A stretch of DNA of 39,410 nt, taken from an uncultured Lachnospiraceae bacterium (GTDB lineage: Bacteria; Bacillota; Clostridia; Lachnospirales; Lachnospiraceae). A program made the position numbers and the translations under genes. The stretch spans positions 1 through 39,410 of the forward strand of contig CAOKPU010000024.1 of the NCBI GenBank assembly GCA_948470755.1, given 5' to 3'. The notes beneath the pieces are model-generated. The model was given only the letters and a program-made list of their open reading frames with translations, ran no database searches and was not told where the DNA came from. Within the stretch, counting starts at the first letter, position 1. Each line of letters opens with the position of its first letter. Positions 1,032 through 23,890 of this stretch are shown piece by piece.

Positions 1032-1047
1032 AAACATTAAAGAAAAA

Positions 1048-1084: not shown

Positions 1085-1137
1085 AGATCGGGATTTTTGA
1101 TCTGATGAAAAATAAAGAGAAAAGAGAGGGAATGGAG

Positions 1138-5109: not shown

Positions 5110-5328
5110 ACGTTTTCCTCCGTGACATAAGTTTTGTTTGTGTTCATTGCATTTTTTAAATTTCATATTTATCTTCCGGATCCCCCTCGCTTTACTGTCC
5201 AAGAACCTAATATCACAAGAAAAATGCAGGAAATTAAAAAATGTAATTATTATTTAATTTTACCAATTTTTAAATGGAATGTCTACTTTTTTTTGTGGAT
5301 TTATTCTCTTAAGTAATGGGGCGGGAAG

Positions 5329-6536: not shown

Positions 6537-7592
6537 GTGAAACAATTTTATGGAATGAGCCAGAGCGGGAATTTGCAAGATGCGGTGAGGGGTCTTGTAA
6601 ACCCTAAGTTGATTATACTTATGTCAAATGACAAGCAGTTTGCAGAACATGTGGAAGAATTGCAGAAGCTTTATCCGAAAGTGCCTAGTATTGGATGCAT
6701 TGGGATGAGCTATGACACGATTATAGTAGAAGGAGGGGTCGGGATCGCTGCCTTCACGGAAGGGGTCAGCGCCGTTGTTAATCTTTTAGAACAGGTTTCC
6801 AGTATGCCTGTAAAATACATAAAGCGTTTGGAGCAGGATGTAGAGAAAATCAGCGCATCGCAAAGGGACACTGTATGCATTGACCTCTGTGCGGGAAATG
6901 ATGCTTGTGTGCTTACCACGATGTACAGCGTTCTTGGAAAAAGAGGGATACCTCTGATGGGAGGGACCGGGGATGGGGGGAAAGTATCGGTAAACGGCAA
7001 AATATATGAGGATGCCGTTGCTTATGCCCTGGTAAAAAATGAGACGGGCAAGGTCAAGGTGTACAAAGAAAATATGTATAGGCCTTTGGCGGGCTATCGG
7101 CTGATTGCTTCCAAAACAGACAGAAGCAAATATTATATCGGTGAACTGAATGGAAGGCCTGCAAAGCAGGTGTATCAGGAGATTTTACATATTAATGAAA
7201 ATGATATTACATCGCAGACGTTTAAGAACCCTTTTGGAAAGATCAACGGGAAGGACGTATGCATTATTTCCATAAAAGAAGTATCTGGCAGCGGGCTGTG
7301 CTGCTTCCGGCAGGTAAATGATTCGGATGTGCTTACTTTGCTGGAACTTAGGGATTACAGGCAGATTGTGGCGGAAACCATAGAGTCGATCAGGAAGGAT
7401 TTCTCCCATATTTCGGCTGTTTTTTCAGTAAATTGCCTTTTCCGTTATCTTCTGTTTAGCCAAAACGGCAATATGTCGGAATATTTGCATACCATGAGCG
7501 CATTGGGCAGCCATTGCGGGCTGATTGGATATGGGGAGCATTATAATAACCAGTTTGTCAACCAGTCTATGACTTGTGTGGTATTTGAATAA
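6537..7592 (+). CDS. FIST-domain sensory protein (FIST N + FIST C)
   Basis: A soluble protein of 351 residues with no signal peptide or membrane segment. The N-terminal half ([10 protein letters not shown], then PSIGCIGMS and GVGIAAF) and the C-terminal segment [19 protein letters not shown] match the two-part FIST domain, a ligand-binding module thought to sense small molecules in signal transduction proteins. The start is GTG 6537, preceded by AGAAAGGGA at a good distance. The next gene, 29 bp on, is a membrane-less chemoreceptor, so the pair probably forms a two-subunit cytoplasmic receptor. The family call is fairly sure; the ligand is unknown. Confidence 0.8.
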
Positions 7593-7621
7593 ATAGCGGA
7601 CGGAAGGAAGAGGAGAAGCAT

Positions 7622-8563
7622 ATGATTTTTAATGATAAAAAAGGAAAAGAACACAGGACGGAGCAGGATAAATTGTATCCTCTGATGCATGTGGCTTCCA
7701 GCATTCAGGATTATCAGAAAAAAGTGGTGGAAAAAGAAGTGAGTTCCCTGCAGGAATTAAGAGCGGTACAGCTTTCATTCGGCGGGGTGTTGAAAGAAAA
7801 TAATGCGCTGAAAGAAAAAATGGATGCTTTCCATGGGGTGTTTGAAACCGTAGGGCAGGTATCCGGCGAGTTTGAAGGAGTGAAAAAGGAAATTGAGGAT
7901 TCCGTCAACCGGGCGCAGGAACAGGTGAGCGGGTTAAAGAAAAGTTCGGAAGAAGTACAGGACCGGTTCAGTCAGATCCAAAGCACGTTTGATGATTTCC
8001 AGATTTCTGTAAAAGAAATTAAATCATGTATGAATAAGGTCATTACGATTGCTAACCAGACGGATATGCTGGCTATGAATGCATCCATTGAAGCGGCCAG
8101 GGCCGGGGAAAGAGGGAAAGGGTTTGCCGTTGTAGCGGATGAGGTAAAAAGCCTTGCGAATGAAATCAAGGGGCTTGTTAAAGCGGTGCATGTCAGCCTG
8201 GAAGAGGTAGAGAGCGGGACCGGCAAATTAAATGATACGATTAACTACTCCCAGGAAGCCTTAAGCCGGAGCCTTGAAAATGTAGATGTGACCTATGATA
8301 TGTTCGATAAGATTACAGTGGCGGCCAGCGGGGCGGATGTTGTCCAGGAACGGATCAATCAGGCAGTGGATTCTTCGCAGGCGGAGCTGGCCAACTTAAG
8401 CCAAGGATTTGACCAGATGAAAGCAAGGTATCAAAAGGTGTTAGAACATATTGAAAGGGCGAGCGAGATGGGGACAACGAAGAGCGCTATGTTCGAGGAC
8501 ATGGACAATATGGTGTCTCAGGTAGTGCCGATCATGAAAGAAATGCAAAAGAAAAAAATCTAA
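7622..8563 (+). CDS. Soluble (cytoplasmic) methyl-accepting chemotaxis signalling protein
   Basis: 313 residues, with no hydrophobic segment long enough to cross the membrane. A coiled-coil N-terminus (about 20-130) leads to the receptor tip at about 138-190, which contains [20 protein letters not shown] and should bind CheA/CheW. There is no recognisable sensor domain of its own. The start ATG 7622 has GAGGAG upstream. It lies 29 bp after the FIST gene and is surely co-transcribed with it. I infer that FIST supplies ligand sensing and this protein relays the signal. A strong terminator follows at 8603-8649. Confidence 0.87.
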
Positions 8564-8602
8564 TGAAAAAATCTTATGAAGCAAAAAATGATAGGAATGA
8601 AC

Positions 8603-8649
8603 CCGGGCAGATCCGATTGTATGAGGCAATCGGGTTTGCCTGGTTTTTT
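8603..8649 (+). terminator. Intrinsic terminator of the FIST-chemoreceptor operon
   Basis: CCGATTG (8613-8619) pairs with CAATCGG (8627-8633). The stem extends outward through GGGCAG and TTTGCCTGG with wobble pairs and is followed by six T (8644-8649). Confidence 0.8.
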
Positions 8650-8940
8650 GTATCATAGGAAATTGCTTTGCAATTACCTATGATACAAAAAACCTCCGGG
8701 AGGATGCGCACTGCGCGCAAGAGAAAAATGGCTGCTGTCACAGCCGCGCTCCGGCGCGAGTGTGCGTTAGGACGCACACTTTTTTACTTTATAGGAAAGT
8801 TCGTCGTCAGACGAGCATGAATTAACGAAGAACCGAAGGTTCTTCATGAAGTGTCGAAGACACTTTTTTATATCATAGGATTCGGGTGTCAAAAGACTCA
8901 TCCGGCGGCTCCGCCTGAGCAAATTGCACAAAAAGAAATT
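8650..8940. repeat. Hairpin-rich repeat island (modules B, C and A in series)
   Basis: Module B (8650-8686) is a near-perfect 37-bp palindrome: GTATCATAGG faces CCTATGATAC with AATTGC/GCAATT inside. Small stems follow (CCTCC/GGAGG, GGCTG/CAGCC, CGCGC/GCGCG) and then a terminator at 8759-8785. Module C (8789-8870) repeats the 5364-5444 copy with the same two GAA-loop hairpins. Module A's left half starts at 8878 (GGATTCGGGTGTCAAAAG) and fades out near GCACAAAAAG, lacking the right arm. No gene is present. Confidence 0.8.
8759..8785 (+). terminator. Intrinsic terminator within the repeat island
   Basis: AGTGTGCGT (8759-8767) and ACGCACACT (8772-8780) form a perfect 9-bp stem with a TAGG loop, followed by T (8781-8785). 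Confidence 0.75.
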
Positions 8941-8978
8941 TAATAAATGTATAAAATGCTGAAAGTAAGTAATTATAA

Positions 8979-9007
8979 TTGACAGTTTCTATAGAATATG
9001 CTATATC
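8979..9007 (+). promoter_or_regulatory. Promoter of the yhf operon
   Basis: TTGACA (8979-8984) and TATATC (9002-9007) are 17 bp apart. Transcription would begin near 9014, inside the operator at 9013-9032, so bound regulator should block initiation or early elongation. Confidence 0.7.
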
Positions 9008-9012
9008 TATGA

Positions 9013-9032
9013 ATATACAAAATTTTGTACAA
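9013..9032. promoter_or_regulatory. Operator O1, probable YhfZ binding site
   Basis: It contains the perfect 14-bp palindrome TACAAAATTTTGTA (9016-9029). Nineteen of 20 positions match 10106-10125 upstream of yhfY. A duplicated palindrome beside a GntR-type regulator gene points to autoregulation. Confidence 0.65.
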
Positions 9033-9141
9033 AGCAAAAAATCTTTCCGGCATGAAAAATCTGTGATACAATGTCACCAGTCGCAAGAAAGTAACGAATG
9101 GATAAAACGGAACTTCCGGAAGCTGAGGGGGACATAGGAGC

Positions 9142-10062
9142 ATGGGTGATTTATTATATCAGAAGATTGGATTGGCTGTAAACCGGATGGCTCAGGATTT
9201 TATGAGCCGGGCGGAGGGCGAAAGGATTCCTTCCATATCCGAATATCAGGAGAAACTGCAAGTGTCCAGAGGGACCGTACAAAACAGCCTTGCCTACCTG
9301 AAAGAAAAGGGGGCTGTAGAGCTGTTGAGCCATGGGCATATGGGAACCTATATTGAAAAACTGGATTATCGCAGATTGCAGGAATGCGGTATGAATAAAG
9401 GGTTGTTGGGCAGTATGCCTCTTCCCTATTCTATTTCTTACCAAGGGTTGGCAACGGCGCTGTACCATGTCCTGGAAAATTTCGATTTTAATTTAGTTTA
9501 TACCAGAGGTTCGGAAAGCCGTCTGCAATTGGTGGCGGAAGGAGTATATCAGTTTACGGTTTGCAGCTTATATGCGGCGGAAAAGGCTATGAGAAACCGT
9601 ACGGATATAGAAATCGCGGAGAACCTTGGATTGGGCAGTTATTTATCCCGCCATGTGCTGTTGCTGCGTAATACGGATGCGGACGGAATCAAGGAAGGGA
9701 TGAGGGTAGCTTATGACAGGACTTCTCTTGACCAAAGGGATATTACCTCTATGATTACGGAAGGCATCCATGGGATCCGGTTTGTAGAGTTGAGGGCGCA
9801 TCAGACGGTAAATGCAATACGGGGAGGCGTGATTGATGCCGGCGTCTGGAATATGGATGAAATTATTGAATCAGGATATCAGGGATTACATATAATACCT
9901 TTGGACGACCTGATAGATATCAGTAAATTTTCTACAGCGGCATTGGTAATACGCCGCGGTGAAGAAGCTTTGAAACAACTGCTTAGGCGTTATGTAAAGC
10001 CGTCGGAAATCCGCAAGGTTCAGGAAGATATAAAAGCAGGAAGGACTCCGGTAGATTATTAA
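9142..10062 (+). CDS. yhfZ: YhfZ-family transcriptional regulator (GntR-like HTH plus ligand-binding domain)
   Basis: 306 residues. A winged-helix N-terminus occupies about residues 1-75 (IPSISEYQEKLQVSRGTVQN is a typical GntR recognition helix region). The C-terminal part resembles a periplasmic-binding-protein fold effector domain: SRLQLVAEGVYQFTVCSLYA, then GIRFVELRAHQ and DAGVWNMDE. Length and sequence fit E. coli YhfZ (about 300 residues). It is the first gene of the yhf operon and sits just downstream of the promoter and palindrome it probably binds. The effector is presumably the pathway substrate, which is unknown. The start ATG 9142 follows GAGGGGG at suitable spacing. Confidence 0.85.
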   Translation: MGDLLYQKIGLAVNRMAQDFMSRAEGERIPSISEYQEKLQVSRGTVQNSLAYLKEKGAVELLSHGHMGTYIEKLDYRRLQECGMNKGLLGSMPLPYSISYQGLATALYHVLENFDFNLVYTRGSESRLQLVAEGVYQFTVCSLYAAEKAMRNRTDIEIAENLGLGSYLSRHVLLLRNTDADGIKEGMRVAYDRTSLDQRDITSMITEGIHGIRFVELRAHQTVNAIRGGVIDAGVWNMDEIIESGYQGLHIIPLDDLIDISKFSTAALVIRRGEEALKQLLRRYVKPSEIRKVQEDIKAGRTPVDY

Positions 10063-10092
10063 AGGCGGGGACGGTTTTTTTTCGTTTCAATG

Positions 10093-10125
10093 TACAAAAA
10101 AATGTATATACAAAATTTTATACAA
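10093..10125. promoter_or_regulatory. Operator O2 (tandem sites) upstream of yhfY
   Basis: A second copy of the operator (10106-10125) differs from O1 by one base (TTTTATACAA for TTTTGTACAA). A weaker third copy, TACAAAAAAATGTA, lies at 10093-10106, 16 bp upstream of the matching part. No clear -35/-10 pair is seen here, so O2 may act by looping or as a roadblock. Confidence 0.55.
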
Positions 10126-10144
10126 TATCTTGAAGGAGGGAGTT

Positions 10145-10492
10145 ATGTTAAAAAAAAGGATGCAGATTCTTGAACAGGGTGGAGTGATCAGCGGTAAGGT
10201 ATCCGGTTTTATGAATCTGGTGATTGACCTGATGAAAGAATGCTTTCCGGAATGGAGCCAGGAAAAAGAAGAAATGTTCACAACGCATCTGGCTATGGCA
10301 GCGGAACGTATTTGTAAAGGCGATATTGTAGACACTATGGAGGAAACGTCATGGGAAGAAGTGAAGGGATGCGGGGGATTCCATACGGCAGAGGATTTCT
10401 TTTTAAAAATGATGGAATTTTCTCCGGTAGAGTTCCCGGAAAGTGAAAAACGTTTCATATTACTGCATATCTGCAACATGCTGGAAGAATAA
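10145..10492 (+). CDS. yhfY: YhfY-like PRD-domain protein
   Basis: A small protein of 115 residues, almost wholly helical, with LMKECFPEWSQEKEEMFTTH and a mid-protein His typical of PTS-regulation-domain folds. In E. coli, yhfY encodes a stand-alone PRD protein of similar size (about 120 residues) in the same cluster. PRDs are normally phosphorylated on His by PTS proteins; no PTS gene is nearby, so its partner is unknown, though it may act with YhfZ. The start ATG 10145 follows GAAGGAGGGAG. It lies downstream of O2, 82 bp after yhfZ. Confidence 0.72.
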   Translation: MLKKRMQILEQGGVISGKVSGFMNLVIDLMKECFPEWSQEKEEMFTTHLAMAAERICKGDIVDTMEETSWEEVKGCGGFHTAEDFFLKMMEFSPVEFPESEKRFILLHICNMLEE

Positions 10493-10606
10493 AAATTTGC
10501 CGTTTCACTGCATAGGCTGCGAGTTTACCGGAAGCCGGAATGAGAAGAGGGCGGTAATGGGAAAGGCGGCAGAAGGCAGGGCGCATGAAAAGGAGGAAAA
10601 CATGAT

Positions 10607-10978
10607 ATGGTAAAAATTGTTGTAGGAGGACAAATCAATAAGCGTGAGATCGCAGATTTCACATGCAAATTCCTTGGAGACAAGGCAACTGTGGATGTAA
10701 AAGGCGATCTGGACGCCGCTATGGCGATGAAGGCGGGGCAATACGATTATTACATTGGGGCTTGCAATACCGGAGGAGGCGGGGCATTGGCATTAGCTTT
10801 GTCTTTATTGGGGGCGGATCATTGCGCTACTGTTTCTATGCCTGGCAAGATATTTCCGGATGAGGAAATCATTGCTGCGGTAAAGGATGGAAAAACCGCT
10901 TTTGGATTCACGGCGCAACATGCAGAAAAAGTATTGCCTGTTTTATTGACGGCGATTATGGAGAAAAAAGGAGAATAA
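10607..10978 (+). CDS. yhfU: YhfU family protein (DUF2620)
   Basis: 123 residues. The central motif DYYIGACNTGGGGALALA and the tail GKTAFGFTAQHAEKVLPVL are shared with E. coli YhfU as I recall it. The protein is soluble and Gly-rich, with an alternating beta/alpha pattern suggestive of a small nucleotide- or phosphate-binding fold, possibly similar to PTS EIIB-like domains (inference only). The start ATG 10607 uses AGGAGG at 10591-10596; the nearer ATG 10602 would stop after three codons. It is followed after 4 bp by the transporter yhfT, implying a functional pair. Confidence 0.82.
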   Translation: MVKIVVGGQINKREIADFTCKFLGDKATVDVKGDLDAAMAMKAGQYDYYIGACNTGGGGALALALSLLGADHCATVSMPGKIFPDEEIIAAVKDGKTAFGFTAQHAEKVLPVLLTAIMEKKGE

Positions 10979-10982
10979 GGAT

Positions 10983-12293
10983 ATGAAATATATAGTGATT
11001 ATTTTGATCGGCGCATTAGCCTCTATTTTAGCTAACCGCGGGATTGCCGTATTTAATGACGGGTTCCGTCCTATTGTACCTCAATATTTTGACGGAAGGA
11101 TCGGGAGGAAAGAATTAGCTACGATGAGCTTTGCCGTCAGCTTTGGGCTTGTCATTGGGTTTGGTATTCCTACATCTATTGCGGCCTCTATTATATTGAT
11201 ACATTGTCTGCTTTTGACGACCGATATTATCGGGACCTGGTGTCCGGATTCCAAAATAGGGATGATTATTTCAGGAGTCATTGGGGGGTTATACGGATTA
11301 GGGATTTTAGTGGGACTGGAAATTATTGTAAAGCTGTTTGGGATGCTTCCTTATAACTTCTTAAGCGATCTGGGAGGGGTATCTACTTATGTAACGGTAG
11401 CGTTCGCCGTTTTCCCGGCAGTAGCGGTAGGATATCAGCATGGCTTTGGGAAAGGCTCCATTACAGCCTGCATTACCGTATTGTCTTATTTCCTGATTAA
11501 GAAATTTGCCTCCTTTTCCATGGGGGACTATAGCGTAAGCCTGAATGCGGAAGGTATGTCCATGCTTGTGGGAACGGTTATGATGCTGGTGTTTGCAGCG
11601 CAGGTGAAAGGGGAAGGGAACGCGAATGAGGCTTTGACGGAGGTGTTTTCTGAAAAGCTGGCCAGAATACGTAAAAACTGGTTCCTGCTTGCAATTATGG
11701 GCGGTTTGGTAGCCTGCGGCACCAGCCTGGCGATTATTGCCGGCGATCCTACATCCCTGGCCCTGTTGGCGGAAGGCGCTTACAGCGATGCTGCTTTGGC
11801 GGCTTTTGCAAGGGCGATTGGATTTGTTCCTTTGGTATTTACCACGGCTATTGTAACGGGCGTTTACGCTCCGGCTGGCTGTACCTTTGTGTTTGTAGTC
11901 GGGCTGGCGCTTCATGGCAATCCGATAGTGGCATTGATAGCCGGCGCTGTAGTGATGATCGTAGAGCTGCTGTTGATCAATGTATTTGCCAAAGGGATGG
12001 ACAAATTTCCCGGGGTTAAAGAGATGGGAGAACATATCCGTACTTCGATGAATAAGGTAATTGAAGTAACGTTGTTAGTAGGTGCGGTGGCGGCTGCTGA
12101 AAAAATGGCGGCAAATGCGGCCGGAGTGTCCGGAATAGGCGCTTTATTTGTCATTGCCTGTCTGTTGTTAAACCGTCAGTCGAAAAAACCTATCGTAGAG
12201 ATGGCGGTAGGCCCGGTAGCATGTATTGTCTTTGGAGTACTTTTGAATATCCTGCTTATGGTCGGCCTGATTGCTATGCCGGCGGCGGGCTGA
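10983..12293 (+). CDS. yhfT: YhfT family membrane transporter
   Basis: 436 residues with about 10-12 hydrophobic segments and Gly/Ala-rich helices, such as LASILANRGIAVFNDGFRP at the N-terminus and GALFVIACLLLNRQSKKPIV near the end. Length matches E. coli YhfT (about 434). It is a polytopic permease without an ATPase partner, so probably a secondary transporter or a PTS-EIIC-like channel. Its immediate coupling to yhfU (4-bp gap, own AGGAG site) and the downstream enzymes indicates uptake of the pathway substrate, whose identity is unknown. Confidence 0.85.
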   Translation: MKYIVIILIGALASILANRGIAVFNDGFRPIVPQYFDGRIGRKELATMSFAVSFGLVIGFGIPTSIAASIILIHCLLLTTDIIGTWCPDSKIGMIISGVIGGLYGLGILVGLEIIVKLFGMLPYNFLSDLGGVSTYVTVAFAVFPAVAVGYQHGFGKGSITACITVLSYFLIKKFASFSMGDYSVSLNAEGMSMLVGTVMMLVFAAQVKGEGNANEALTEVFSEKLARIRKNWFLLAIMGGLVACGTSLAIIAGDPTSLALLAEGAYSDAALAAFARAIGFVPLVFTTAIVTGVYAPAGCTFVFVVGLALHGNPIVALIAGAVVMIVELLLINVFAKGMDKFPGVKEMGEHIRTSMNKVIEVTLLVGAVAAAEKMAANAAGVSGIGALFVIACLLLNRQSKKPIVEMAVGPVACIVFGVLLNILLMVGLIAMPAAG

Positions 12294-12309
12294 TGGATGT
12301 AAGGCATTT

Positions 12310-12329
12310 AAGGAGGCTTTACCATGTGA
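12310..12329 (+). promoter_or_regulatory. Start-stop minimal ORF (ATG TGA) with an ideal ribosome binding site upstream of php
   Basis: AAGGAGG (12310-12316) is 7 bases before ATG (12324), which is followed immediately by TGA. The ATG is in frame with php. Either this is a ribosome-stalling or reinitiation element, or a formerly extended php start has been closed by a stop codon. Confidence 0.4.
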
Positions 12330-12383
12330 AGGCTTTTTCGATATTGGATGCGGACGGGAAAACGGGTAAAGGAGTTAAGGGAT

Positions 12384-13253
12384 ATGATTGGTTATACATT
12401 GATGCATGAGCATACAACCATAGATTTGTCCGGAGTGAAAAAGGATATGGACTGTTGTCTGGACTGTTATGAGGAAACGGCGGAAGAGTACCGTTGGCTG
12501 TATGAAGTAGGCGTCCGCAGGATTGTGGATGTAACAAACGACGGGATGGGGCGTAATCCGGCTTACGTCAGCCGCATGGAAAAAGAAACAGGGCTTCAGA
12601 TCGTCCAGTCTACCGGTTTTTATAAAGAGCCGTTCCTGCCGGCATGGACGCAGGGGAAGACGGCAGAAGAACTGGCTGGTTTTATGATGAAAGAAATCGA
12701 AGAAGGAATCCAGGATGGGCCGAAAGCCGGGATGATCGGGGAGATTGGCACAAGTAAAAATGAAATGAAGATGAGTGAAAGAATGGTGTTCGACGCGGCG
12801 GTTATGGCGGCAAAAAGTACAGGAAAACCAATTTATACACATACTACGCTGGGGACATGGGCTTTGGAACAGGCGGATTATTTCAAAGGATCCGGGATGG
12901 ATGTAAGCAGGGTCATCATTGGACATATTGATTTATCAGGTGATCTTCAATATATACGTAAGGTTCTTGCTACCGGGGTCAACGTAGGTTTTGACACGAT
13001 AGGAAAAAATACGTATTTCCCTGATGAAAAGCGGGTGGAATTCTTAAAGGGACTGGAAGGGGACGGTCTGTTGGGACAGGTAGTGCTCTCTCTTGATTTA
13101 ACGAGAAAATCCCATCTTGCTTATCAGGGAGGTATTGGATACGTCTATCTTTTTGAGACATTCCTGCCAATGCTTAGGCAGGCAGGGCTAAGGGAAGAAA
13201 GCATTGAACAGATGTTGATTGGAAACCCGGGAAGGATATTAGGAGAGATCTAA
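12384..13253 (+). CDS. php: Php/YhfV phosphotriesterase-homology amidohydrolase
   Basis: 289 residues, amidohydrolase superfamily (TIM barrel, binuclear metal). Likely ligands are H8 and H10 (MHEH), a bridging carboxylate E120 (MIGEIGTSK; the E. coli homologue has Glu where phosphotriesterase has a carboxylated Lys), H153 (YTHTT), H181 (IIGHIDL) and D238 (LSLDLT). The substrate is not known; bacterial Php proteins are not reported as efficient phosphotriesterases. The start ATG 12384 gives an N-terminus (MIGYTLMHEH) like E. coli Php and follows AAAGGAG by 9 bases. It is part of the yhf operon. Confidence 0.9.
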   Translation: MIGYTLMHEHTTIDLSGVKKDMDCCLDCYEETAEEYRWLYEVGVRRIVDVTNDGMGRNPAYVSRMEKETGLQIVQSTGFYKEPFLPAWTQGKTAEELAGFMMKEIEEGIQDGPKAGMIGEIGTSKNEMKMSERMVFDAAVMAAKSTGKPIYTHTTLGTWALEQADYFKGSGMDVSRVIIGHIDLSGDLQYIRKVLATGVNVGFDTIGKNTYFPDEKRVEFLKGLEGDGLLGQVVLSLDLTRKSHLAYQGGIGYVYLFETFLPMLRQAGLREESIEQMLIGNPGRILGEI

Positions 13254-13265
13254 GGGGGAGGAATA

Positions 13266-14327
13266 ATGGCAGGGAATGAAGAGATGATCTATCATGCTAA
13301 AATGACCATGGCCGCTTTGAAGAATCCTTATGGCAGCGTGGAAAAAGTGTTTCCTTTGGCAATTGATCTGTTTTCTGAAAAAAAGGATGCCCGATATCTG
13401 GGAGTAAAAAACGTGCCGGCTGTGCCGGCGGATTTCATTTCCAGATTGGGGAAAGCAGGCTATGTGCTTCATACGCTGGATAGAGCGTCGTATGGAGGCC
13501 GGGCTGTGGATATAGGATTAAAGAATCCGGTCACCGGGCGTCCCATGACCGGCAGCAGCAGCGGTACTGCGATGAATGTTTTTTTGCATTTTAATGATTT
13601 AGGGGTTGGCACGGATGGAGGAGGCTCCGTGCTTGCCCCGGCTATGAGCCTGAATCTTTACGGATTGATCAGCCCGTTGTTATGTCCGGGGCAGATGAAA
13701 AAATATGAAAAACGGTCTACGGACGGGATATCGTTTGCCCCGTCTTTAGGGTTGATGGCACGCAGCCTGAGCGAATTACAAAATGGGCTGGAAGCGGGAT
13801 TGGATTGGCCGGTACGGCATATGGAGGAGGTGGGGGAAGAAGAGGCAATCCGTATACTGCGTCTGGACGGAGGCAAGGTCCTGGACGGAAAAGGGAAGAT
13901 GGTAGGAGAGGCTCCTGATTTGTCCGGCAGCAGGAAAGAGCTGATTGATTTTTTACAGGAATATCTGCCGGAGTGCGATTGCCTCATCAGCCGGGAAGGG
14001 CCGGTGGACGTAAACGGTATGGGGGATACTGTTTTTGGCCATTTTGATGAAAATACGGCATATTGCCAGCGAAAATCCGGCAAAGGGTTGATTCGCGTTG
14101 CCAATATGGCGGGGGCGACAGCCCTTTGTGTTCCGGAAAAGGCGCTTGGCTGTGGACAAGTCCTGCTTTGCCAGTCGGTCCCGGAAAAAATAAAAAAAAT
14201 TTTGCGGGCGGCAGAAGCCTTGGAACCATGGAAGGATGATCTGGTCACCTGGTATTTTGGGAATCTGGATCAATATCTGCAAGGCGGGGTGTTGGAACCG
14301 CAGGAACAGAAAAGGAGGATGCAATGA
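13266..14327 (+). CDS. Amidase-signature-like protein, apparently lacking the catalytic lysine
   Basis: 353 residues, shorter than usual amidase-signature enzymes (about 450-500). The Gly/Ser signature is present: TGSSSGTAMNV (cis-Ser among residues 97-99) and GTDGGGS with nucleophile candidate S121. The normal lysine motif (PVAVKDLF in typical members) appears here as FPLAIDLF (29-36), with the Lys missing. It is not part of the E. coli yhf operon; here it lies between php and yhfS, 12 bp after php, and overlaps yhfS by 4 bp (ATGA), so it clearly belongs to this pathway. It may hydrolyse an amide by altered chemistry, or be a binding protein. Confidence 0.68.
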   Translation: MAGNEEMIYHAKMTMAALKNPYGSVEKVFPLAIDLFSEKKDARYLGVKNVPAVPADFISRLGKAGYVLHTLDRASYGGRAVDIGLKNPVTGRPMTGSSSGTAMNVFLHFNDLGVGTDGGGSVLAPAMSLNLYGLISPLLCPGQMKKYEKRSTDGISFAPSLGLMARSLSELQNGLEAGLDWPVRHMEEVGEEEAIRILRLDGGKVLDGKGKMVGEAPDLSGSRKELIDFLQEYLPECDCLISREGPVDVNGMGDTVFGHFDENTAYCQRKSGKGLIRVANMAGATALCVPEKALGCGQVLLCQSVPEKIKKILRAAEALEPWKDDLVTWYFGNLDQYLQGGVLEPQEQKRRMQ

Positions 14328-15427
14328 AAACGTATCCATTACAGAGTATTACGATAGAAGAAGCGATGGATTTACAGTTTAAAGTGGTAGATTGTATTAC
14401 CAAAGAGTTTGCCGGCCATGAAATCCTGACCCGCGGGGATCTGGGGGTAGTGCCGGGATTGAATAAACCGATAATTACGATGAAAGCGGAAAAGGCAATC
14501 GCAGGAATATTCGATGCGGAAAGCAGTATTTTGGTAAGGGGGGCCGGTACAGGGGCAATCCGTTACGCCCTGTTTGCGGTGATGAAGGCGGGGGAAACTT
14601 TGCTGATACATACCGCGCCTGTTTATAGTACGACCCGGACGACGATTGAAATGTTAGGAATACGCACGGTAAGGGCTGATTTTAATGATCTGGGGAATAT
14701 CCGCCATATTTTTGCAAAGCATCCGGAAATAAAAGCGGCGTTGGTGCAATATACCAGACAAAGCACGGAAGATTCTTATGATATGGAAGAAGTGATCCGG
14801 ACGATCAAGGAATGCTGCAACGTGCCGGTGGTGACGGATGATAATTATGCGGTGATGAAGGTGCGCAAGAATGGAAGCCAATGCGGCGCCGATCTTTCCT
14901 GTTTTTCTACTTTTAAGCTGCAAGGCCCGGAAGGTATCGGGTGTATTGTGGGCAGGAAAAAATACATTGATATTTTAGTGGGACATCATTATTCCGGCGG
15001 CTGTCAGACCCAAGGCCATGAGGCGTTGGAGGCTTTGCGGGGGCTTGTATATGCGCCGGTATCCTTGGCTGTGCAGGCGAAGGTTAATGACCGTTTGTTG
15101 GAAAGGATTACATCCGGCGAACTGCCGGGAATCCGTCAGGCATTTTTAGCGAACGCCCAGTCGAAGGTGCTTCTGGTAGAGTTTGAAGAGCCGGTGGCGG
15201 AACAGATACTTTTGGAAGCTGAAAAGCTGGGAGCGGCTCCCAATCCGGTGGGGGCGGAATCAAAATATGAGCTGGCGCCGATGTTCTATCGCGTATCCGG
15301 TACATTCCGGGCTTCTGATGCGGAAATAACAAAAAGGATGATACGTATCAATCCTATGCGCAGCGGCGATGATACGGTGATCAGGATTTTGAAAGAGGCA
15401 ATGGAAAGGGTGGGAATATGTTTATAG
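14324..15427 (+). CDS. yhfS: YhfS, PLP-dependent fold-type I aminotransferase-like enzyme
   Basis: 367 residues, similar in length and motifs to E. coli YhfS: RGAGTGAIR (72-80) for phosphate binding, TDDNYAVMKV (171-180) with the Asp that contacts the pyridine nitrogen, and STFKLQGPEG with the Schiff-base Lys at K198. The family belongs to the cystathionine/aromatic aminotransferase-like fold, but its reaction is unproven. Coupled translation with the preceding gene (ATGA overlap) and with yhfX (10-bp overlap) suggests equal amounts of the three proteins. Confidence 0.88.
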   Translation: MKTYPLQSITIEEAMDLQFKVVDCITKEFAGHEILTRGDLGVVPGLNKPIITMKAEKAIAGIFDAESSILVRGAGTGAIRYALFAVMKAGETLLIHTAPVYSTTRTTIEMLGIRTVRADFNDLGNIRHIFAKHPEIKAALVQYTRQSTEDSYDMEEVIRTIKECCNVPVVTDDNYAVMKVRKNGSQCGADLSCFSTFKLQGPEGIGCIVGRKKYIDILVGHHYSGGCQTQGHEALEALRGLVYAPVSLAVQAKVNDRLLERITSGELPGIRQAFLANAQSKVLLVEFEEPVAEQILLEAEKLGAAPNPVGAESKYELAPMFYRVSGTFRASDAEITKRMIRINPMRSGDDTVIRILKEAMERVGICL

Positions 15428-16575
15428 AGAAGCTGCAAAAAGATAACACAAAATTGATCCATGCGGCGTGCAGGCTTCATCAGGAAGGGGGGATTCTCCC
15501 GGATTCCTATGTCGTTGACTTGGAACAATTCCGCAGGAATGCATCAATGATAAAGAAAGCGGCAGATGATAAAGGGATCCGTTTGTTTTTTATGTTAAAA
15601 CAGTTGGGGCGTAATCCTTTTTTAGCAAAGGAATTAATGAAATTAGGATATGAAGGTGCGGTGACCGTGGATTATAGGGAAGCGCAAGTGATGATGCGCC
15701 ATGGGATCCCGATAGGGAATGTAGGTCATCTGGTGCAGATACCGCAGGGAATGCTGCGGCAGATCGTGGATTATGGGCCGGAGTATATTACTGTTTTCTC
15801 AGAGGATAAAGCAAAGGCTGTCAGCCGGGCCGCATTGTCCTTGGGAAAAGTGCAAAAACTGATGATCCGCGTGTGCGATGATGCCGATATGATGTACAGC
15901 GGGCAGACGGCAGGGGTTTCTTTAAAAGAACTGCCTTCTTTTTTGGAGCATACAGCGGGTTATCAGGGGATAAGGATCGCCGGGGTCACTTCTTTCCCCT
16001 GTTATCTTTTCCGTGAGGATTTGGGGGATATCGCTCCTACGGCCAACCTTCAGACTGTGTTGCGGGCGGTGGATGTCTTGAAAAAATACGGCATAAAAGC
16101 GGAAATTGTCAATACCCCTTCGGCAACTTGCGTAAGAACGCTGGATGTGATGGAAGGGCAGGGCGGCAATTGCGGAGAACCCGGACATGGCCTGACCGGG
16201 ACAACGCCGGCCCATGCAGTAATGGATCTGCCGGAAAAAAGCTGCGTTGCGTATGTGAGCGAGGTATCCCACAATTTTGAGGGAAAGGGTTATTGCTACG
16301 GCGGAGGTTTTTACCGCCGTTCCCATGTGGCTTATGCATTGGTGGGAGAGGATGCCCGGCATTTGCGCCGTACGAAAGTGGCGCCTCCGAGCCTGGAGAG
16401 CATTGATTATCATTTTGAATTGGGGGAATCTTGCAGGGTAGGGGAGACTGTCGTGATGGCCTTCCGTTATCAGATATTTGTCACTCGCAGTGATGTGGTG
16501 CTGTTGGAGGGAGTTGCGGAAGGTAATCCCGTAATAACCGGGATTTATGACAGCTTAGGAAATAAAAAGGATTGA
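15418..16575 (+). CDS. yhfX: YhfX, fold-type III PLP enzyme (alanine racemase-like)
   Basis: 385 residues, the same size as E. coli YhfX. The PLP lysine is K61 in FFMLKQLGRNP, within an alanine-racemase N-terminal barrel. Later motifs include IRIAGVTSFPC, NTPSATC and EPGHGLTGTTP. Likely an amino-acid racemase, epimerase or lyase acting on the compound that YhfS also handles. The start overlaps the end of yhfS by 10 bp; no separate promoter is seen. Confidence 0.87.
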   Translation: MFIEKLQKDNTKLIHAACRLHQEGGILPDSYVVDLEQFRRNASMIKKAADDKGIRLFFMLKQLGRNPFLAKELMKLGYEGAVTVDYREAQVMMRHGIPIGNVGHLVQIPQGMLRQIVDYGPEYITVFSEDKAKAVSRAALSLGKVQKLMIRVCDDADMMYSGQTAGVSLKELPSFLEHTAGYQGIRIAGVTSFPCYLFREDLGDIAPTANLQTVLRAVDVLKKYGIKAEIVNTPSATCVRTLDVMEGQGGNCGEPGHGLTGTTPAHAVMDLPEKSCVAYVSEVSHNFEGKGYCYGGGFYRRSHVAYALVGEDARHLRRTKVAPPSLESIDYHFELGESCRVGETVVMAFRYQIFVTRSDVVLLEGVAEGNPVITGIYDSLGNKKD

Positions 16576-16656
16576 TTCCCCGTATGCTTGCATCGGGGTT
16601 GTTGATTGAAAAATTTCATGCAGGGCAGATTGGGCATTGTAAGGAAGGATGAAGAA

Positions 16657-17868
16657 ATGAAACGGTTTATTGTCATTGTTTTGGATGGATTTGGTATAGG
16701 GGCTATGAAGGATGCCGAAAAGGCGCGGCCTGGCGATGAAGCGGCGAATACCCTTGGCAGCATCCTGAGGGATTTTCCGGATAGCTGTTTTACTAACCTG
16801 GAGCGGTTGGGGTTAATGAATGCATATGGGCGGGAAAGCCTTCGCATGAAATTTTCCCCAACTGCCAATGTAGGCCGGGCGGAGCTGATGCACTGGGGGG
16901 CGGATACGTTTATGGGGCATCAGGAGATTATGGGTACCTTGCCAAAAAAACCGACCGCACAGCCTTTCCAGGAGAAAGTGGATGGAATCTACGCCCATTT
17001 GCTGGAAAAAGGTCATAAGGTGGAAATACTCAGGAACGGGGATCTGCGTTATCTATTAGTGGATGATTATGTAACGGTAGCAGATAATATCGATGCCGAC
17101 TTAGGGATGGCTTATAATTGCACGGCCCCGCTGGATTATATTTCGTTTGACAAAGAACTGGAAATCGGACGTCATGTGCGGGAAGCCGCTACGGTAAACA
17201 GGATTATCCCGTTTGGGGGGACGGGAACCACGCTGCAGGACCTGCTGCGTGCAGAAGAGGTGAGGGAAGGGAAATATATCGGCATCCATGCCGTAAAATC
17301 CGGTTCTTACAATAAAGGTTATCAATGCCGGCATCTGGGGTATGGGGTGGATAAAAATGTACAGGCCCCAACGATCCTGACGGACGCCGGTATCCCGGTA
17401 ACGTTGTTTGGCAAGGTGGCGGATATCGTGGCGAATGACGGAGGGAAAAGCGTTTCCTGTGTCCCTACCGATGAAGTTTTGGATCTGACTATAGAAGAAA
17501 TTCAGGCGATGGAAAATGGTTTTATTTGTACCAACGTGCAGGAAACCGATTTGGCGGGGCATAGCCAGGACGCGGACTGGTACCGCCGTCTGCTGGAAAT
17601 AGCAGATGAAAGGATTGGCAGGATGATCCCTTTATTAAGCGGGGATGATATTTTGCTGGTTATGGCCGATCACGGGAACGATCCGGATATTGGGCATAAC
17701 AAGCATACAAGGGAGAATGTACCGTTGTTAGTCTATAAAAAGGGGGTATGCGGCATAGATCTGGGCCTGCGGGCTTCCCTGTCCGATGTAGGGGCGACGG
17801 TATGCAGATACTTTGGAGTAAAACAGCCGCAGAACGGCATTCCATTTCTGGAAAAATTGCAGCCGTGA
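16657..17868 (+). CDS. yhfW: YhfW, phosphopentomutase-like alkaline phosphatase superfamily protein
   Basis: 403 residues (E. coli YhfW about 408). Metal and phosphate-transfer motifs are present: D10 in VLDGFGIG, T84 in GADTFMGHQE (the phospho-acceptor Thr in phosphopentomutases), and DHGNDPDIGHNKHTREN near the C-terminus. It is related to DeoB but is a distinct branch always found with yhf genes. The start ATG 16657 follows AAGGAAGG by 8 bases; an upstream in-frame TTG is less likely. It is the last gene of the operon, ending 31 bp before a convergent gene. Confidence 0.86.
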   Translation: MKRFIVIVLDGFGIGAMKDAEKARPGDEAANTLGSILRDFPDSCFTNLERLGLMNAYGRESLRMKFSPTANVGRAELMHWGADTFMGHQEIMGTLPKKPTAQPFQEKVDGIYAHLLEKGHKVEILRNGDLRYLLVDDYVTVADNIDADLGMAYNCTAPLDYISFDKELEIGRHVREAATVNRIIPFGGTGTTLQDLLRAEEVREGKYIGIHAVKSGSYNKGYQCRHLGYGVDKNVQAPTILTDAGIPVTLFGKVADIVANDGGKSVSCVPTDEVLDLTIEEIQAMENGFICTNVQETDLAGHSQDADWYRRLLEIADERIGRMIPLLSGDDILLVMADHGNDPDIGHNKHTRENVPLLVYKKGVCGIDLGLRASLSDVGATVCRYFGVKQPQNGIPFLEKLQP

Positions 17869-17899
17869 GGCTTCATAAAGCGGCGGGAGGGGTGACAGA

Positions 17900-18520
17900 T
17901 TACCGAAGATGTTCCTGCGGGTTATCGTCTTCAAACTCAAAGACGCAACGTTCGTAAGCATTGATAATATGGGTGTCTTCATATTTATCATAACGCTTAT
18001 GGTTTCTTCCATAGGACATATGGACATGTCCGTGAAGGAAATATTTTGGGCGGTATTTTTCCATCAGCGTCCGGAATACCTGGAATCCCTGATGGGGCAG
18101 ATCCCGCCCGTCGTTTAGTTGATAGGCGGGGGCGTGGGTGACTAAGATGTCGAACCCTCCTTTCCGGAAAAGCTGGAACCATAATTTTGCCACACGCTGT
18201 TTCATTTGCCGTTCGGTATACTGATGTGCCCCCGGTTTATAACGCATGGAACCGCCAAGCCCGAGAATGCGTATCCCCTCGTGGACATAGATCTGATTTT
18301 CAATGCAGATGCATCCCTCCGGGGGGATTTTATCGTATTTCCCATCGTGATTCCCATGCACGTACAGCACCGGTACAGTGGAAAGAGTGACCAGAAAGGA
18401 GAGGTAGCGGGGATCCAGATCGCCGCAGGAAATAATCAGATCAATGCCCTCCAGCTTGCTTTTTTCGAAAAAATCCCATAAATATTTCGATTCTTCGTCT
18501 GCAATCGCCAGTATCTTCAT
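17900..18520 (-). CDS. Metallophosphoesterase (calcineurin-like)
   Basis: 206 residues. Conserved blocks are CGDLDPRY, GNHDGKYD, THAPAYQLND and HGHVHMSYG, giving a binuclear metal centre. The first block reads IADEESKY, so the usual Asp-x-His is Asp-Glu-Glu, with the His replaced by Glu. It starts 7 bp after the stop of the ParB/BMP fusion gene on the same strand and is probably co-transcribed with it. The substrate (phosphodiester or nucleotide) is unknown. Confidence 0.85.
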   Translation of the reverse strand: MKILAIADEESKYLWDFFEKSKLEGIDLIISCGDLDPRYLSFLVTLSTVPVLYVHGNHDGKYDKIPPEGCICIENQIYVHEGIRILGLGGSMRYKPGAHQYTERQMKQRVAKLWFQLFRKGGFDILVTHAPAYQLNDGRDLPHQGFQVFRTLMEKYRPKYFLHGHVHMSYGRNHKRYDKYEDTHIINAYERCVFEFEDDNPQEHLR

Positions 18521-18527
18521 AGATGCC

Positions 18528-20435
18528 TTATCCTTCCTTTTTTACTCCCTGCTGGTCAATAACAGGCACTGCATGTTCGTTCAATTCCTGTTTTTTAGGG
18601 ATGGTCCCGATGATATTCTCCGCCAGCCAGTCCATAGTCATGATTTCTTCCGGCGTAAGGGCTCTTTCCGGGTTGTCTACAACGATGCCCGTCTGGGAAT
18701 ATAGGATGCCGGAAAACGGATTGAACTGTCCTGAGCTGATAGTGGCTTTTAGCAGCTCTACCAAACGTTTTGTGCCGATGGGCAGATGCTGGGAACAAAT
18801 AACGTCAATGACGCCGGAGGACATACCCCACCAGTAATTGATTGCTTTTGTGGCGGAAGGGTTGTCATCATATTTCCATTTTCCGTCCATAATGGTACGG
18901 ATAAGCTGTTCATAGAACTTTCCCCAATGATAAAGAGGCATGGCGAGATTCCTCGTATACTCTCCTTCCATATGATAGATGCCAAAGAACCGGGAGGCTT
19001 CTTCCGGGATTACCATATCCCGGCCTGAAATGCAGGAAGAGCCGGTTTCTTTGATTTTTTCCGCGATATCAACGTCTTTCATAGTAGACCATTCCAAATA
19101 AACCTTTGCCCGGGGATTGATCATTTTCGCTCCCAGCGCAAAAGCGTTAATATTAGCGATAGAACCGTAGATCGGGTAGTTCGCTACGTAAGTCAGGCGG
19201 TTGTTTTCCGCCATCGCGCCGGCAATGGCGCCCATTAGGAATTTCGCCTCATGCATCCTGGAATAATAGGTGCGGATATAACGGTGGGAAGTATTTAAGG
19301 AACAGCTTAGGATCCGCGTTTCCGGGTGGGCGATAGCGGCCTTTACGCTGGCCTGCACAAAAGCAGGAGTAGTGGTAAAGATCAGGTTGCAGCCGGAAGA
19401 GATCGCTTCTTCTATCAGGGAATCTACATTTTCCGTTGTCCCATTTTCATAATATGCCGTATGCACTTCATCCGGGAAGGTCTGTTCCAAATAAAGCCTT
19501 CCGAGTTCGTGGGCGTAAGTCCACGCGGAAGTCCCCGGCGTCTTTTCGTAGATAAATGCAATCTTTAATTTGGGCGAGCTTAAAGGAAGCAGGATGTTTA
19601 ACAGCGGCTTTTTCTCCTGATTCGGTTTCATTTTCAGGTCGATTTCCTGGCCTTCCTGAAGAAGCTCGAATTCCTCCCAGGTCTTGAGCATCAATTCTTT
19701 TAAATCATTTGTTGTTTTTTCTTCGGTTGCGTTATATCCATGCAAAGTGATAAAAGAAAGGAATGCATCCCCCGGCGTAATATTTAATTTATTGCCGCCC
19801 TTTGCCTTATATTCGGCGCTGAACCTTGTATAAAAAGCGCTGAATTTTAATAAATCCTCGTCCGACCACATTTCGCCCGGTTCTTTCCCTACTGCTTTTT
19901 GAAGTTTGGCAAAGCTGCCTTCTTGAGAAAACCAGATGTAATTGATTGGGGCCAGACGGTAAAAATCCATGAATTCATAATATATTTTATTTTCTTTTTC
20001 TTCGGTGCGCCTTGGCACGATGCGGGTAACGTTGCCCGGGATGGAAACAACGCCGAAATATTTCATGACGCTGACGCGCTTGTTTCCTTCCAGCACATAA
20101 AATTTGTTCATATACTCGTAAGCTTTGATCGGTTCCCGGATTCCCTCTTTGATATGGCTGGTGCTAAGGGAAGACCATTTTTGGGCAAATTCCGAGTTCT
20201 CGCGCAGGATAGGCATAAAGTTGCCGGCAAAGGAGTTGCTTCTTCCAATGGTTTTGGTGCCGACAATCTGATCGGCGGGAATTTGCACAAGTCCCAAAGA
20301 TTGTTCGGAATAGGAACCCTTTTCCGGCATGATATCGTCTAAGACTTGAAGAGTCGGCTTCTCTCCATGGAGCATACGCGACTGATAGTCCTTTTTTCCT
20401 AATTTGTATGCTTTGCTATATTCTTCTCTTCCCAT
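18528..20435 (-). CDS. Cytoplasmic ParB-like/BMP (PnrA/Med-type) fusion protein
   Basis: 635 residues without a signal peptide or lipobox. Residues about 45-140 look like a ParB/sulfiredoxin-like domain: VQIPADQIVGTKTIGRSNSF and then FYVLEGNKRVSVMKYFG, the ParB G-x-R box. A helical middle part follows. Residues about 290-600 match the basic-membrane-protein (BMP) family of nucleoside-binding proteins (GTSAWTYAHELGRLYLE, IFTTTPAFVQ, NINAFALGAKM). BMP proteins are normally secreted receptors; here the fusion must act inside the cell, perhaps sensing nucleosides and binding DNA or CTP. It is the first gene of a minus-strand pair with the metallophosphoesterase. Confidence 0.78.
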   Translation of the reverse strand: MGREEYSKAYKLGKKDYQSRMLHGEKPTLQVLDDIMPEKGSYSEQSLGLVQIPADQIVGTKTIGRSNSFAGNFMPILRENSEFAQKWSSLSTSHIKEGIREPIKAYEYMNKFYVLEGNKRVSVMKYFGVVSIPGNVTRIVPRRTEEKENKIYYEFMDFYRLAPINYIWFSQEGSFAKLQKAVGKEPGEMWSDEDLLKFSAFYTRFSAEYKAKGGNKLNITPGDAFLSFITLHGYNATEEKTTNDLKELMLKTWEEFELLQEGQEIDLKMKPNQEKKPLLNILLPLSSPKLKIAFIYEKTPGTSAWTYAHELGRLYLEQTFPDEVHTAYYENGTTENVDSLIEEAISSGCNLIFTTTPAFVQASVKAAIAHPETRILSCSLNTSHRYIRTYYSRMHEAKFLMGAIAGAMAENNRLTYVANYPIYGSIANINAFALGAKMINPRAKVYLEWSTMKDVDIAEKIKETGSSCISGRDMVIPEEASRFFGIYHMEGEYTRNLAMPLYHWGKFYEQLIRTIMDGKWKYDDNPSATKAINYWWGMSSGVIDVICSQHLPIGTKRLVELLKATISSGQFNPFSGILYSQTGIVVDNPERALTPEEIMTMDWLAENIIGTIPKKQELNEHAVPVIDQQGVKKEG

Positions 20436-20623: not shown

Positions 20624-20681
20624 AAAACGGGTAGGGGATGGGGGAGGGTACTTTCCCAAGGTGAAATATGGAGGGTGGACG

Positions 20682-22403
20682 ATGAAAAGAAGGACAAGAA
20701 GATTGAGCATTAGGCTCAAAATATTGTTGAGTACAAGCCTGCTGTTGATTTGCCTTTTTCTTTTGCTGGGGTTTAGTTTTTATAAGAGCATGGAAGAAAA
20801 TATGGTCAGCATGGGAGTGGAGCAGGCGGAGGTTGCCGCAAAAGTGGCGGTGAGCCGGATAGATGCTTCGGTGGCCGGTTTACAGCCAGGGGAGGAAGGG
20901 TCGCCGGAATATGAAAGGATGCTGCAGGCCCTTCTGGATGCAAAGCATACTTGCAATGTGGCTTATTTATACACTCTCAGTACGGACGGGAGGACGGTTT
21001 TTTACGGCATTGATACCGATGAAACCGGAAATAAGCGGGCGATTGGGGAACCTTTTGAATATAGTTATGAAGAATTGCAGTCGGTGTTTGCAGGCAATGT
21101 TTATGTACAGGATTACATAGATTCCACAGAAGACGGGGATCTGATTACCGCATATATCCCTGTTAAGGATGAAGGGAACCGTGTGGCAGCGGTTCTGGGA
21201 AGTGATTATGATGCTTCGGAAATTGTGGAAAGGCTTAACAGCATACGGGTCAGGATGCTGCAGATCGGGGCGGCCGGGGTGCTTTTGGCTCTTCTTATTT
21301 TAAATCTGGTTATAAGGACGATTACCCGCAGCCTTTGGACGGTCAATAAAAAAATTTATGAACTGGTACATAATGAGGGGGATTTGACGCAGAAGCTGGG
21401 TGTAAAGACCGGGGATGAAATGGAACTCATGGCGGATAATGTCAATGATTTATTGAAATATATCCGTGAGATTATGCTGCGTATTTCCGATAATTCAGGA
21501 AAGCTGAACGAATCGACGAAAATCGTATTTGGGAATTTAAAGAATGCAGGGGGGAACATCATGGATGTTTCCGCTACCATGGAGCAGATGAGCGCAGCCA
21601 TGGAGGAAAGTACGGCAACGCTGAACCAGATTGCGGAATCCGTGGAGGAAGCATATGCCAATATCCGGTACATTTCCGAACAGGCGGAGACGGGTAATCA
21701 TTATACGAAGGAAATTGAAGAAAAAGCAGGGAAGATCCGTTGCTATGCGGAAGAGGAACAAAGCAAAGCGCATACGCTTGTCATGGAACTGGCGGATGCC
21801 GTGAATGAAAAGATCCAAAAGTCGAAATCGGTGGAGGAAATAAATGTATTGACGGAAAATATTATCAGCATTACAGGGCAGACCAATCTTTTGGCCTTGA
21901 ATGCCAGCATAGAGGCTGCGCGGGCAGGGGAAGCGGGGAAAGGCTTTGCGGTAGTGGCCGATGAAATTGGGAAGCTGGCCTCAAATTCCGGGGTTGCGGC
22001 AGGTCAGATAAAGAAAGTCAGTTTACAGGTAATCGTGGCGGTGGAGGAATTGGCCCAGGAAGCGGAAAAAATGCTTCAATTTATGGAGCAAACAGCGTTG
22101 GAAGGATACAGGAAACTGCTGGGGGCCAGCCAGGGCTATCAGGAAGACGCCAGGAATATCCATGAAATGATGGAGAAGTTCGCACAAGATTCGGAATGCC
22201 TGGATCAGTCGGTAAATAAGATAAAGGAAGCTTTGCAGTCGGTAAGTTCCGCAGTGGAAGAAAATGCGAAGGGAATCGTCAATGTGTCCGAAGTATCCGC
22301 CCAGTTGACGGAAAGCATGGGCGATATTGAAAAGCGGGCGGATTTAAATAAGAAGATCGGGGAACAACTGCAAGGGGAGGTTGGAAAATTTAAATTGGAA
22401 TAA
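20682..22403 (+). CDS. Transmembrane methyl-accepting chemotaxis protein (single Cache-like sensor)
   Basis: 573 residues. TM1 is about 12-34, the extracellular sensor about 35-188 ([20 protein letters not shown] is typical of Cache domains), TM2 about 190-213, then HAMP and the signalling domain. The tip at about 390-430 has [20 protein letters not shown]. The start ATG 20682 is placed by GGAGGG six bases upstream; an in-frame GTG at 20661 lacks such a site. Flagellar and che genes are not in this window, so it must serve a chemotaxis system encoded elsewhere. Confidence 0.9.
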
Positions 22404-23717: not shown

Positions 23718-23890
23718 AGCGAATATCCCCGCGGGCAATGAACCAAGCAACTGTGGATCATCTGATACTTACGGCATCCGTCAAATGTCTGTGTTACAGC
23801 CGTTTGGCGGATTGTCTGTGGGAAAAGCGGGATTATGGCTTCATGTTTAAAAGAGCCGGCATAGACGATGGGGCGGAAAGGGAGAACGGG

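Follow-up and report, generated by a model that had tools for sequence, protein, structure and literature searches.

The closest described relative of the locus reported here is the Escherichia coli K-12 operon yhfSTUVWXYZ (b3376-b3383), in which the genes run yhfS, T, U, php, W, X, Y, Z and are annotated as putative or uncharacterised. In the open-access literature, which lacks most subscription journals, no published function for the yhf operon came to light, not even for the one in E. coli K-12, and mentions were incidental or at the level of annotation: repeat elements upstream of yhfZ (PMC2965389), a yhfZ knockout that surfaced in a peptide-resistance screen (PMC12147183) and yhf genes in a table of RNA-switch predictions (PMC4448311), none of which, in the parts available to us, gives a function for the operon. 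A second comparison is offered by N-acetylmuramic acid (MurNAc) salvage operons, where, according to the accessible part of one report, a phosphotransferase system (PTS) transporter is paired with PBP4B (murQ-murP-yfeW of E. coli) or with the amidase AmiE (murQRP-amiE-nagZ of Bacillus subtilis); the yhf clusters resemble them in logic, that is, in combining a PTS, a serine hydrolase or amidase and an amino-sugar phosphate product (PMC5061867). Here we describe a yhf operon with an additional amidase-like gene in a 39,410-nucleotide stretch of DNA from an uncultured Lachnospiraceae bacterium (contig CAOKPU010000024.1, assembly GCA_948470755.1), referred to below as the window.

Nine co-directional open reading frames (ORFs) on the + strand span positions 9142-17868 of the window. 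They comprise all eight E. coli yhf families side by side together with one gene of the amidase-signature (AS) type, whose product we call AMI. The gene order is yhfZ, yhfY, yhfU, yhfT, php/yhfV, AMI, yhfS, yhfX, yhfW; E. coli has the same families in another order and lacks the amidase. Families were called by Pfam and NCBIfam profile searches of the window ORFs, and residues are numbered as in the window proteins. An earlier sequence-only reading of this DNA had claimed the entire eight-gene set, adjacent and newly ordered, at these positions, and every gene indeed matches its own family. Its view of the cluster as a coherent set of metabolic enzymes with an amidase-like extra gene also stands, as does its statement that no substrate is established, given the literature search described above. 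It had further claimed 'several' translational couplings through 4-10 bp overlaps; the overlaps are real, 4 bp between AMI and yhfS and 10 bp between yhfS and yhfX, and they favour a probable coupling of translation, but there are only two of them, the remaining neighbours being 4 to 114 bp apart. The window operon is a variant of the known, uncharacterised yhf operon.

AMI (13266..14327, + strand, 353 aa) is assigned to the AS superfamily by its sequence. Its PF01425 match (28.5 bits) is barely over the cut-off of 27 and covers the signature stretch only; PDB profile hits include GatA, FAAH and malonamidase E2. AMI shares with these enzymes the Lys-cisSer-Ser positions and the GTD-GGGS signature, and it is unlike them in its length of 353 aa, the 49 residues from Lys to cis-Ser and a motif of its own, EGPVD..G.GDS. 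The triad (K48, S97, S121) is invariant in 65 of 65 aligned rows, with the GGS signature present. The nucleophile lies 24 residues past the cis-Ser, which we take to be the spacing found in FAAH and malonamidase E2. Here and below, residue roles (the AS triad, a phosphothreonine at Thr85, metal and pyridoxal phosphate (PLP) ligands) are those we presume from the respective families.

The sequence-only reading had treated the amidase as a local addition. Instead, it proved to be a recurrent yhf gene. YhfT (PF10797) scored above its cut-off in 12 of 398 genomes of the phylum and 7 of 392 genomes of the order, 18 different genomes in total; AMI lies inside the cluster in 11 of these 18, and four of the seven genomes without AMI also lack yhfS. 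A search of the 398 phylum genomes with an AMI profile found matches in 169. Among the matches listed, nine were full-length (420-522 bits), all nine of them in yhfT-bearing genomes, and the best match below this set reached 36 bits over the signature region alone; the other 160 genomes, with signature-region-only matches among the matches listed, were set aside as ordinary amidases. It counts against this evidence that eight of the nine full-length hits are rows of the AMI profile itself, so that their scores are high partly by construction and the weight rests on there being no further full-length match. With the window AMI as a single query, seven of 145 relatives were matched: in six, the window's own genome among them, AMI belongs to a yhf cluster, and the remaining match is short, covers the signature and has no cluster nearby. 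A single-sequence AMI scan of the contig collection found no relative.

To the same collection we applied a YhfT alignment, which retrieved 411 relatives. The best 80 of the 411, a choice therefore biased toward the window's kin, were used together with 17 further loci, giving 97 with the window excluded; L024-L027, whose contigs are as long as those of L085 and L091-L093, were left out of this set, as were L029 and L041, which have no yhf cluster. Twenty of the 97 loci reach contig ends, and many rows are metagenome-assembled genomes (MAGs), some of them near-copies. Rows at or below 45 bits were dropped from the counts of loci, gene positions, flanking genes and conserved residues. In the YhfU alignment the U-bearing ORF of L032 was omitted as an over-long frame. 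Across these 97 loci the yhf genes stay together, which answers the possibility, named by the sequence-only reading as a refutation, that homologues occur separately without a conserved neighbourhood.

AMI is present in 64 of the 97 loci. Whole clusters number 51 with AMI (50 with yhfS, one without) and 26 without it (22 with yhfS, four without), and loci near a contig end 13 and 7, respectively. The gene occupies four main positions, namely between yhfT and php (31), after yhfW (9), between php and yhfS as in the window (8) and divergent before yhfU (7), and three minor ones: last after yhfT (5), last after php (3) and between yhfY and php (1). Hosts are mostly Bacillota, and AMI-bearing rows include Spirochaetota, Elusimicrobiota and Coriobacteriia labels, nearly all of them MAGs. 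We also found AMI next to yhfU and yhfT in reduced clusters, in assemblies that may be incomplete: L116 has U, T and AMI only, with YhfX-like_C not seen in its genome; L111 has U, T, AMI and a divergent Z, with yhfX on a separate contig; and G547 has Z, U, T, V and AMI, with YhfX-like_C again not seen. In four further loci, L049-L052 (G618, G550, G610, G685), divergent yhf clusters carry neither yhfS nor AMI, and three of the four end with HPr or EI.

Could AMI be a hitchhiker, inserted by chance and playing no role in the operon? In favour of this, 26 of 77 whole clusters do without it, as does E. coli, and its label shows at least nine gains or losses on a quick YhfT tree with long branches (22.7 changes in shuffles). 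We set this explanation aside as highly improbable in view of the restriction of the full-length relatives found in the 398 genomes to yhfT-bearing ones (9 of 9), the four main positions, the invariant triad and the retention of AMI with U-T in loci missing most other yhf genes. We conclude that the amidase gene is a regular member of yhf clusters and not a local oddity.

We then looked for consistent extra genes across yhf clusters, a comparison the sequence-only reading had proposed: besides the recurrent AMI, some clusters carry nagB, HPr, EI or PBP4B-like hydrolase genes. ORFs of the 97 loci include 10 NagB, 4 HPr (L033, L049, L132, L140) and 2 EI (L050, L051). All 16 of these flanking genes lie downstream on the same strand, and nagB, HPr or EI stands at the operon 3′ end in 15 of 97 loci. 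Thirteen of the 16 are within 193 bp, two (L154, L157) are about 1 kb away, past a HAD phosphatase, and the remaining one is a partial match 4.3 kb off (L112). Chance rates for flanking genes come from this side-and-strand tally and not from random operons. An NCBIfam check gave scores above cut-off for nagB in 5 of 5 cases scanned, for the HPr family in 3 of 3 and for EI in 1 of 1. The nagB loci span Lachnospiraceae, Clostridium, Bacillaceae and family f62, with at least six changes on the YhfT tree (8 loci labelled, L085 missing).

Serine hydrolases of PF00144 (S12) adjoin or interrupt nine loci (L028, L034, L087, L089, L090, L095, L131, L137, L139). The gene of L034 is in two pieces, those of L087, L089 and L090 stand behind nagB, and the hydrolases of L034, L089 and L090 were assigned by similarity only. 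PBP4B is the best NCBIfam model in six of six proteins scanned, at 232-300 bits, under the cut-off of 385. Judging by eye from their N-termini, these hydrolases are putatively exported; a PDB search with one of them (E 1e-20) returned nothing informative. Furthermore, a Cof-type HAD phosphatase adjoins the cluster on the same strand in five loci (L030, L135, L146, L154, L157), four times downstream and once upstream, and L134 further contributes a YdjC-type deacetylase and a glucose/N-acetylglucosamine-type IIBC. Sugar-kinase genes of ROK and PfkB type were seen near two yhf clusters (L163:7114-8034 and L086:16897-17832). Taken together, the accessory genes found elsewhere (nagB, HPr, EI, PBP4B-like hydrolase) are more informative on the substrate than the amidase by itself, and they point to amino sugars. 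The interpretation offered by the sequence-only reading is, overall, partly supported.

Presumed catalytic residues are conserved in other yhf proteins as well. YhfU (DUF2620, 142.7 bits; 10607..10978, + strand) has Cys53 in 98 of 98 rows, and this residue sits in a motif presumably resembling the CGTG-type loop of RpiB. The predicted model of YhfU has an RpiB fold, and the protein is about 20 residues shorter than RpiB. We also considered YhfU as a PTS EIIB protein and did not favour this reading, RpiB fitting the predicted model better than the best EIIB match. Php/YhfV (12348..13253, + strand) is a metallohydrolase of the phosphotriesterase family (PF02126 (PTE), 253.1 bits; E. coli PHP structures 4lef and 1bf6) in which six residues, the presumed metal ligands, are kept in 93 of 93 rows; K220, Y223 and R253 (93 of 93) and R229 (92 of 93) are candidate phosphate-binding residues. 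YhfW (16657..17868, + strand; NF009049 (PRK12383), 566.1 bits, cut-off 254) begins at ATG 16657, preferred over a longer TTG start at 16606 that is likewise open. It scores 145.4 bits against the DeoB equivalog TIGR01696, under the cut-off of 341.2. Of the 86 rows without a gap at the position equivalent to phosphopentomutase Thr85, 45 have Thr and 41 Ser, and the presumed metal ligands are kept wherever a row has no gap (86 or 87 of 90); by these ligands and the acceptor Thr/Ser we assign YhfW as a phosphopentomutase-type metalloenzyme.

These three proteins may suggest a nucleoside- or vitamin-like substrate for the operon, a phosphorylated conjugate of a pentose or pentonolactone, with YhfU and YhfW acting on the pentose phosphate and Php serving as a phospholactonase. 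The YhfU fold and the likeness of YhfW to phosphopentomutase would fit, and Php does match the phospho-furanose lactonase model NF045706, though at 100.8 bits it is far under the cut-off of 630. We consider this explanation quite unlikely: the nagB linkage points to hexosamines, YhfU is shorter than RpiB and its activity putative, and one SFCGS operon, described below, pairs an RpiB-like protein with PRD, DUF4310-4312 and SelA-like genes.

Both PLP enzymes of the operon are assigned through their families. YhfS (14324..15427, + strand; PF22475 (YhfS-like_C), 148.1 bits; structure 4j8l) is of fold type I and has its presumed PLP lysine, Lys198, in 89 of 89 rows. YhfX (15418..16575, + strand; PF01168, and PF21279 (YhfX-like_C) with 123.4 bits; structure 4kbx) is of fold type III with an alanine-racemase-like N domain, and its presumed PLP lysine, Lys61, is kept in 92 of 93 rows, the other being a gap; since YhfX is assigned by family only, the racemase hint of the sequence-only reading is less strong than stated. 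With these enzymes in mind, the operon could break down a non-sugar D-amino-acid or peptide compound, from which the amidase and the S12 hydrolase would release an amino acid to be racemised by YhfX and transaminated by YhfS, nagB and HPr being mere general salvage neighbours. Such a route is in line with the conserved lysines, the AS amidase, the S12 proteins with PBP4B as best family and the racemase N domain. It offers no explanation for a YhfW of phosphopentomutase type, for the RpiB fold of YhfU, for the PRD protein or for the strictly downstream nagB, HPr and EI, and we judge it unlikely.

The remaining two proteins bear on uptake and control. YhfT (PF10797, 514.9 bits; 10983..12293, + strand) is a membrane-type protein and putative transporter, with a predicted helical model (predicted local distance difference test score, pLDDT, 86.6). 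A Foldseek search of this model against the PDB gave nothing at E ≤ 0.001 (best 0.18); on this point the yhf clusters differ from the MurNAc salvage operons, and the transporter hint of the sequence-only reading is weaker than it had appeared. YhfY (PF00874, 29.1 bits, cut-off 23; 10145..10492, + strand) is a stand-alone PRD domain, for which we prefer the ATG start at 10145, preceded by AAGGAGGGAGTT, over a longer open TTG start at 10130. His53 is found in 95 of 95 rows and His113 in 92 of 95, the E. coli protein having Asn at the second position. By these features YhfY is assigned as a PRD protein with conserved His, and its phosphorylation is putative.

A related arrangement was found in a single operon of SFCGS, DUF4312, DUF4311 and DUF4310 genes with a PRD protein, an amidohydrolase, a SelA-like enzyme and a KDGP aldolase (L167:5394-13195, G055). 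As in yhf clusters, membrane-type proteins and a small RpiB-like protein neighbour a stand-alone PRD, and the operon also encodes a hydrolase and a PLP enzyme. YhfU aligned with SFCGS by hhalign at E 1.3e-4 (probability 53%), and the SFCGS protein of L167 scores 24.2 bits against LacAB_rpiB, narrowly missing the cut-off (24.7), which makes the 'glycine-rich SFCGS' family look RpiB-related. The L167 operon is unlike yhf in that comparing YhfT with single DUF4310 and DUF4311 sequences revealed no detectable relationship (hhalign E 0.32 and 0.22), and a kinship was not supported; a phosphomutase and an AS amidase were likewise not seen in the stretch read. A bolder and rather unlikely possibility is that yhf is an undescribed amino-sugar salvage route for an N-acylated compound, for instance a cell-wall fragment, with a novel type of PTS-coupled uptake module. 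In this module an RpiB-fold YhfU in place of EIIB would serve a YhfT that is not EIIC-like, and the stand-alone PRD protein would be a phospho-sensor; SFCGS/DUF4310-4312 operons would form a second branch of this type, and AMI would catalyse the committed, substrate-opening step.

Regulation may involve YhfZ (9142..10062, + strand), a GntR-type regulator with a YhfZ_C domain (NF041241 YhfZ_full, 326.8 bits, cut-off 260; PF14503; PDB relative 2ozz). An operator-like palindrome, TATACAAAATTTTGTACAA, lies 5′ of yhfZ at 9014..9032, and a second one, TATACAAAATTTTATACAA, 5′ of yhfY at 10107..10125. At ≤1 mismatch they are the sole matches in the 3.0 Mb draft genome, with none for a reversed control, and at ≤3 mismatches 0.05 occurrences are expected in the window. 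In other clusters, taking as a site any stretch that agrees with the palindrome at 15 or more of 18 positions, and a shuffle that keeps blocks of two bases only for expectation, we found sites upstream of yhfZ in 25 of 89 (expected 0.25), yhfY in 26 of 93 (0.2), yhfU in 9 of 97 (0.3) and yhfS in 2 of 87 (0.1). A wider regulon was not supported: in 31 genomes at ≤2 mismatches, 250 forward matches were found versus 297 reversed. Only the operon sites are claimed, because the genome-wide forward count does not exceed the reversed one. YhfZ would be the protein that binds these palindromes.

From the gene content and order, the conserved catalytic residues, the linkage to AMI, nagB, HPr, EI and S12 genes, the palindrome and the predicted RpiB fold of YhfU, we tentatively propose, as a plausible if far from secure reading, that yhf serves the PTS-linked catabolic salvage of an amino-sugar-type compound, both phosphorylated and N-acylated, that may come from cell walls. 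The substrate, transport by YhfT, phosphorylation and the order of steps are what we infer. An exported serine hydrolase, beside the operon in some genomes only, would free the compound outside the cell, and YhfT with the cytosolic RpiB-fold YhfU would take it up. The PTS phosphoryl chain may phosphorylate it, or at least gate the system via the two His of YhfY. AMI would cut an amide (the N-acyl or amino-acid part), and Php, YhfX, YhfS and YhfW would remodel both the amino part and the phosphorylated sugar. The route would lead to glucosamine-6-phosphate, which NagB, encoded at the operon end in some genomes, could convert to fructose-6-phosphate. YhfZ would govern the operon through the palindromes before yhfZ and yhfY.

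Several observations weigh against this salvage proposal. Classical PTS transport is not established, because YhfT resembles no solved PTS EIIC and YhfU is nearer RpiB than the best EIIB. The proposal leaves the roles of YhfX and YhfS in an amino-sugar route unexplained, and the amidase is missing from E. coli. Each of NagB, HPr, EI and the S12 hydrolase accompanies fewer than half of the clusters, and the window operon contains none of them. In the window's genome a single nagB match scores above cut-off; it sits on a different contig and is flagged with a stop codon. Three of nine nagB-bearing clusters (L150, L154, L157) have no amidase, so amidase and nagB are not always paired steps. The S12 proteins score under the PBP4B cut-off, come from a widespread superfamily, may stand on one flank of the cluster or the other, and were counted with no separate control; in L108, L109, L136 and L155 an S12 ORF is present without being a same-strand neighbour of the operon. 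Finally, the loci are not independent, with close kin in L087/L089/L090, L085/L107, L050/L051 and L154/L157.

A terminator-like hairpin (8603-8643) precedes the operon, and the first gene on its 3′ side is on the opposite strand. Several hairpins with T tails lie between yhfZ and the chemotaxis gene, at 8603-8866. The stretch 8500-18600 has 19 terminator-like sites versus 9.7 expected, and an Rfam scan of the window for RNA elements gave nothing at the gathering threshold. Just 5′ of the operon (6537-8563) we read a presumed FIST-like sensor protein and, behind it, what looks like a short protein of the methyl-accepting chemotaxis type, with more presumed chemotaxis-type receptors at 970-3144, 3406-5202 and 20661-22403. 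A 977-aa protein at 23738-26671 is presumably a GTPase of the ribosomal-protection/EF-G type, the C-terminal part of which (VDGYNIIFAW...) appears, from its translation, to resemble an NYN/YacP domain.

For anyone seeking the function of the E. coli-type operon, the Firmicute clusters add an amidase, nagB and PTS carriers in some cases and PBP4B-like hydrolases in others, a predicted RpiB fold and a candidate operator. Together they reduce an operon of unknown function to a short list of testable substrates.

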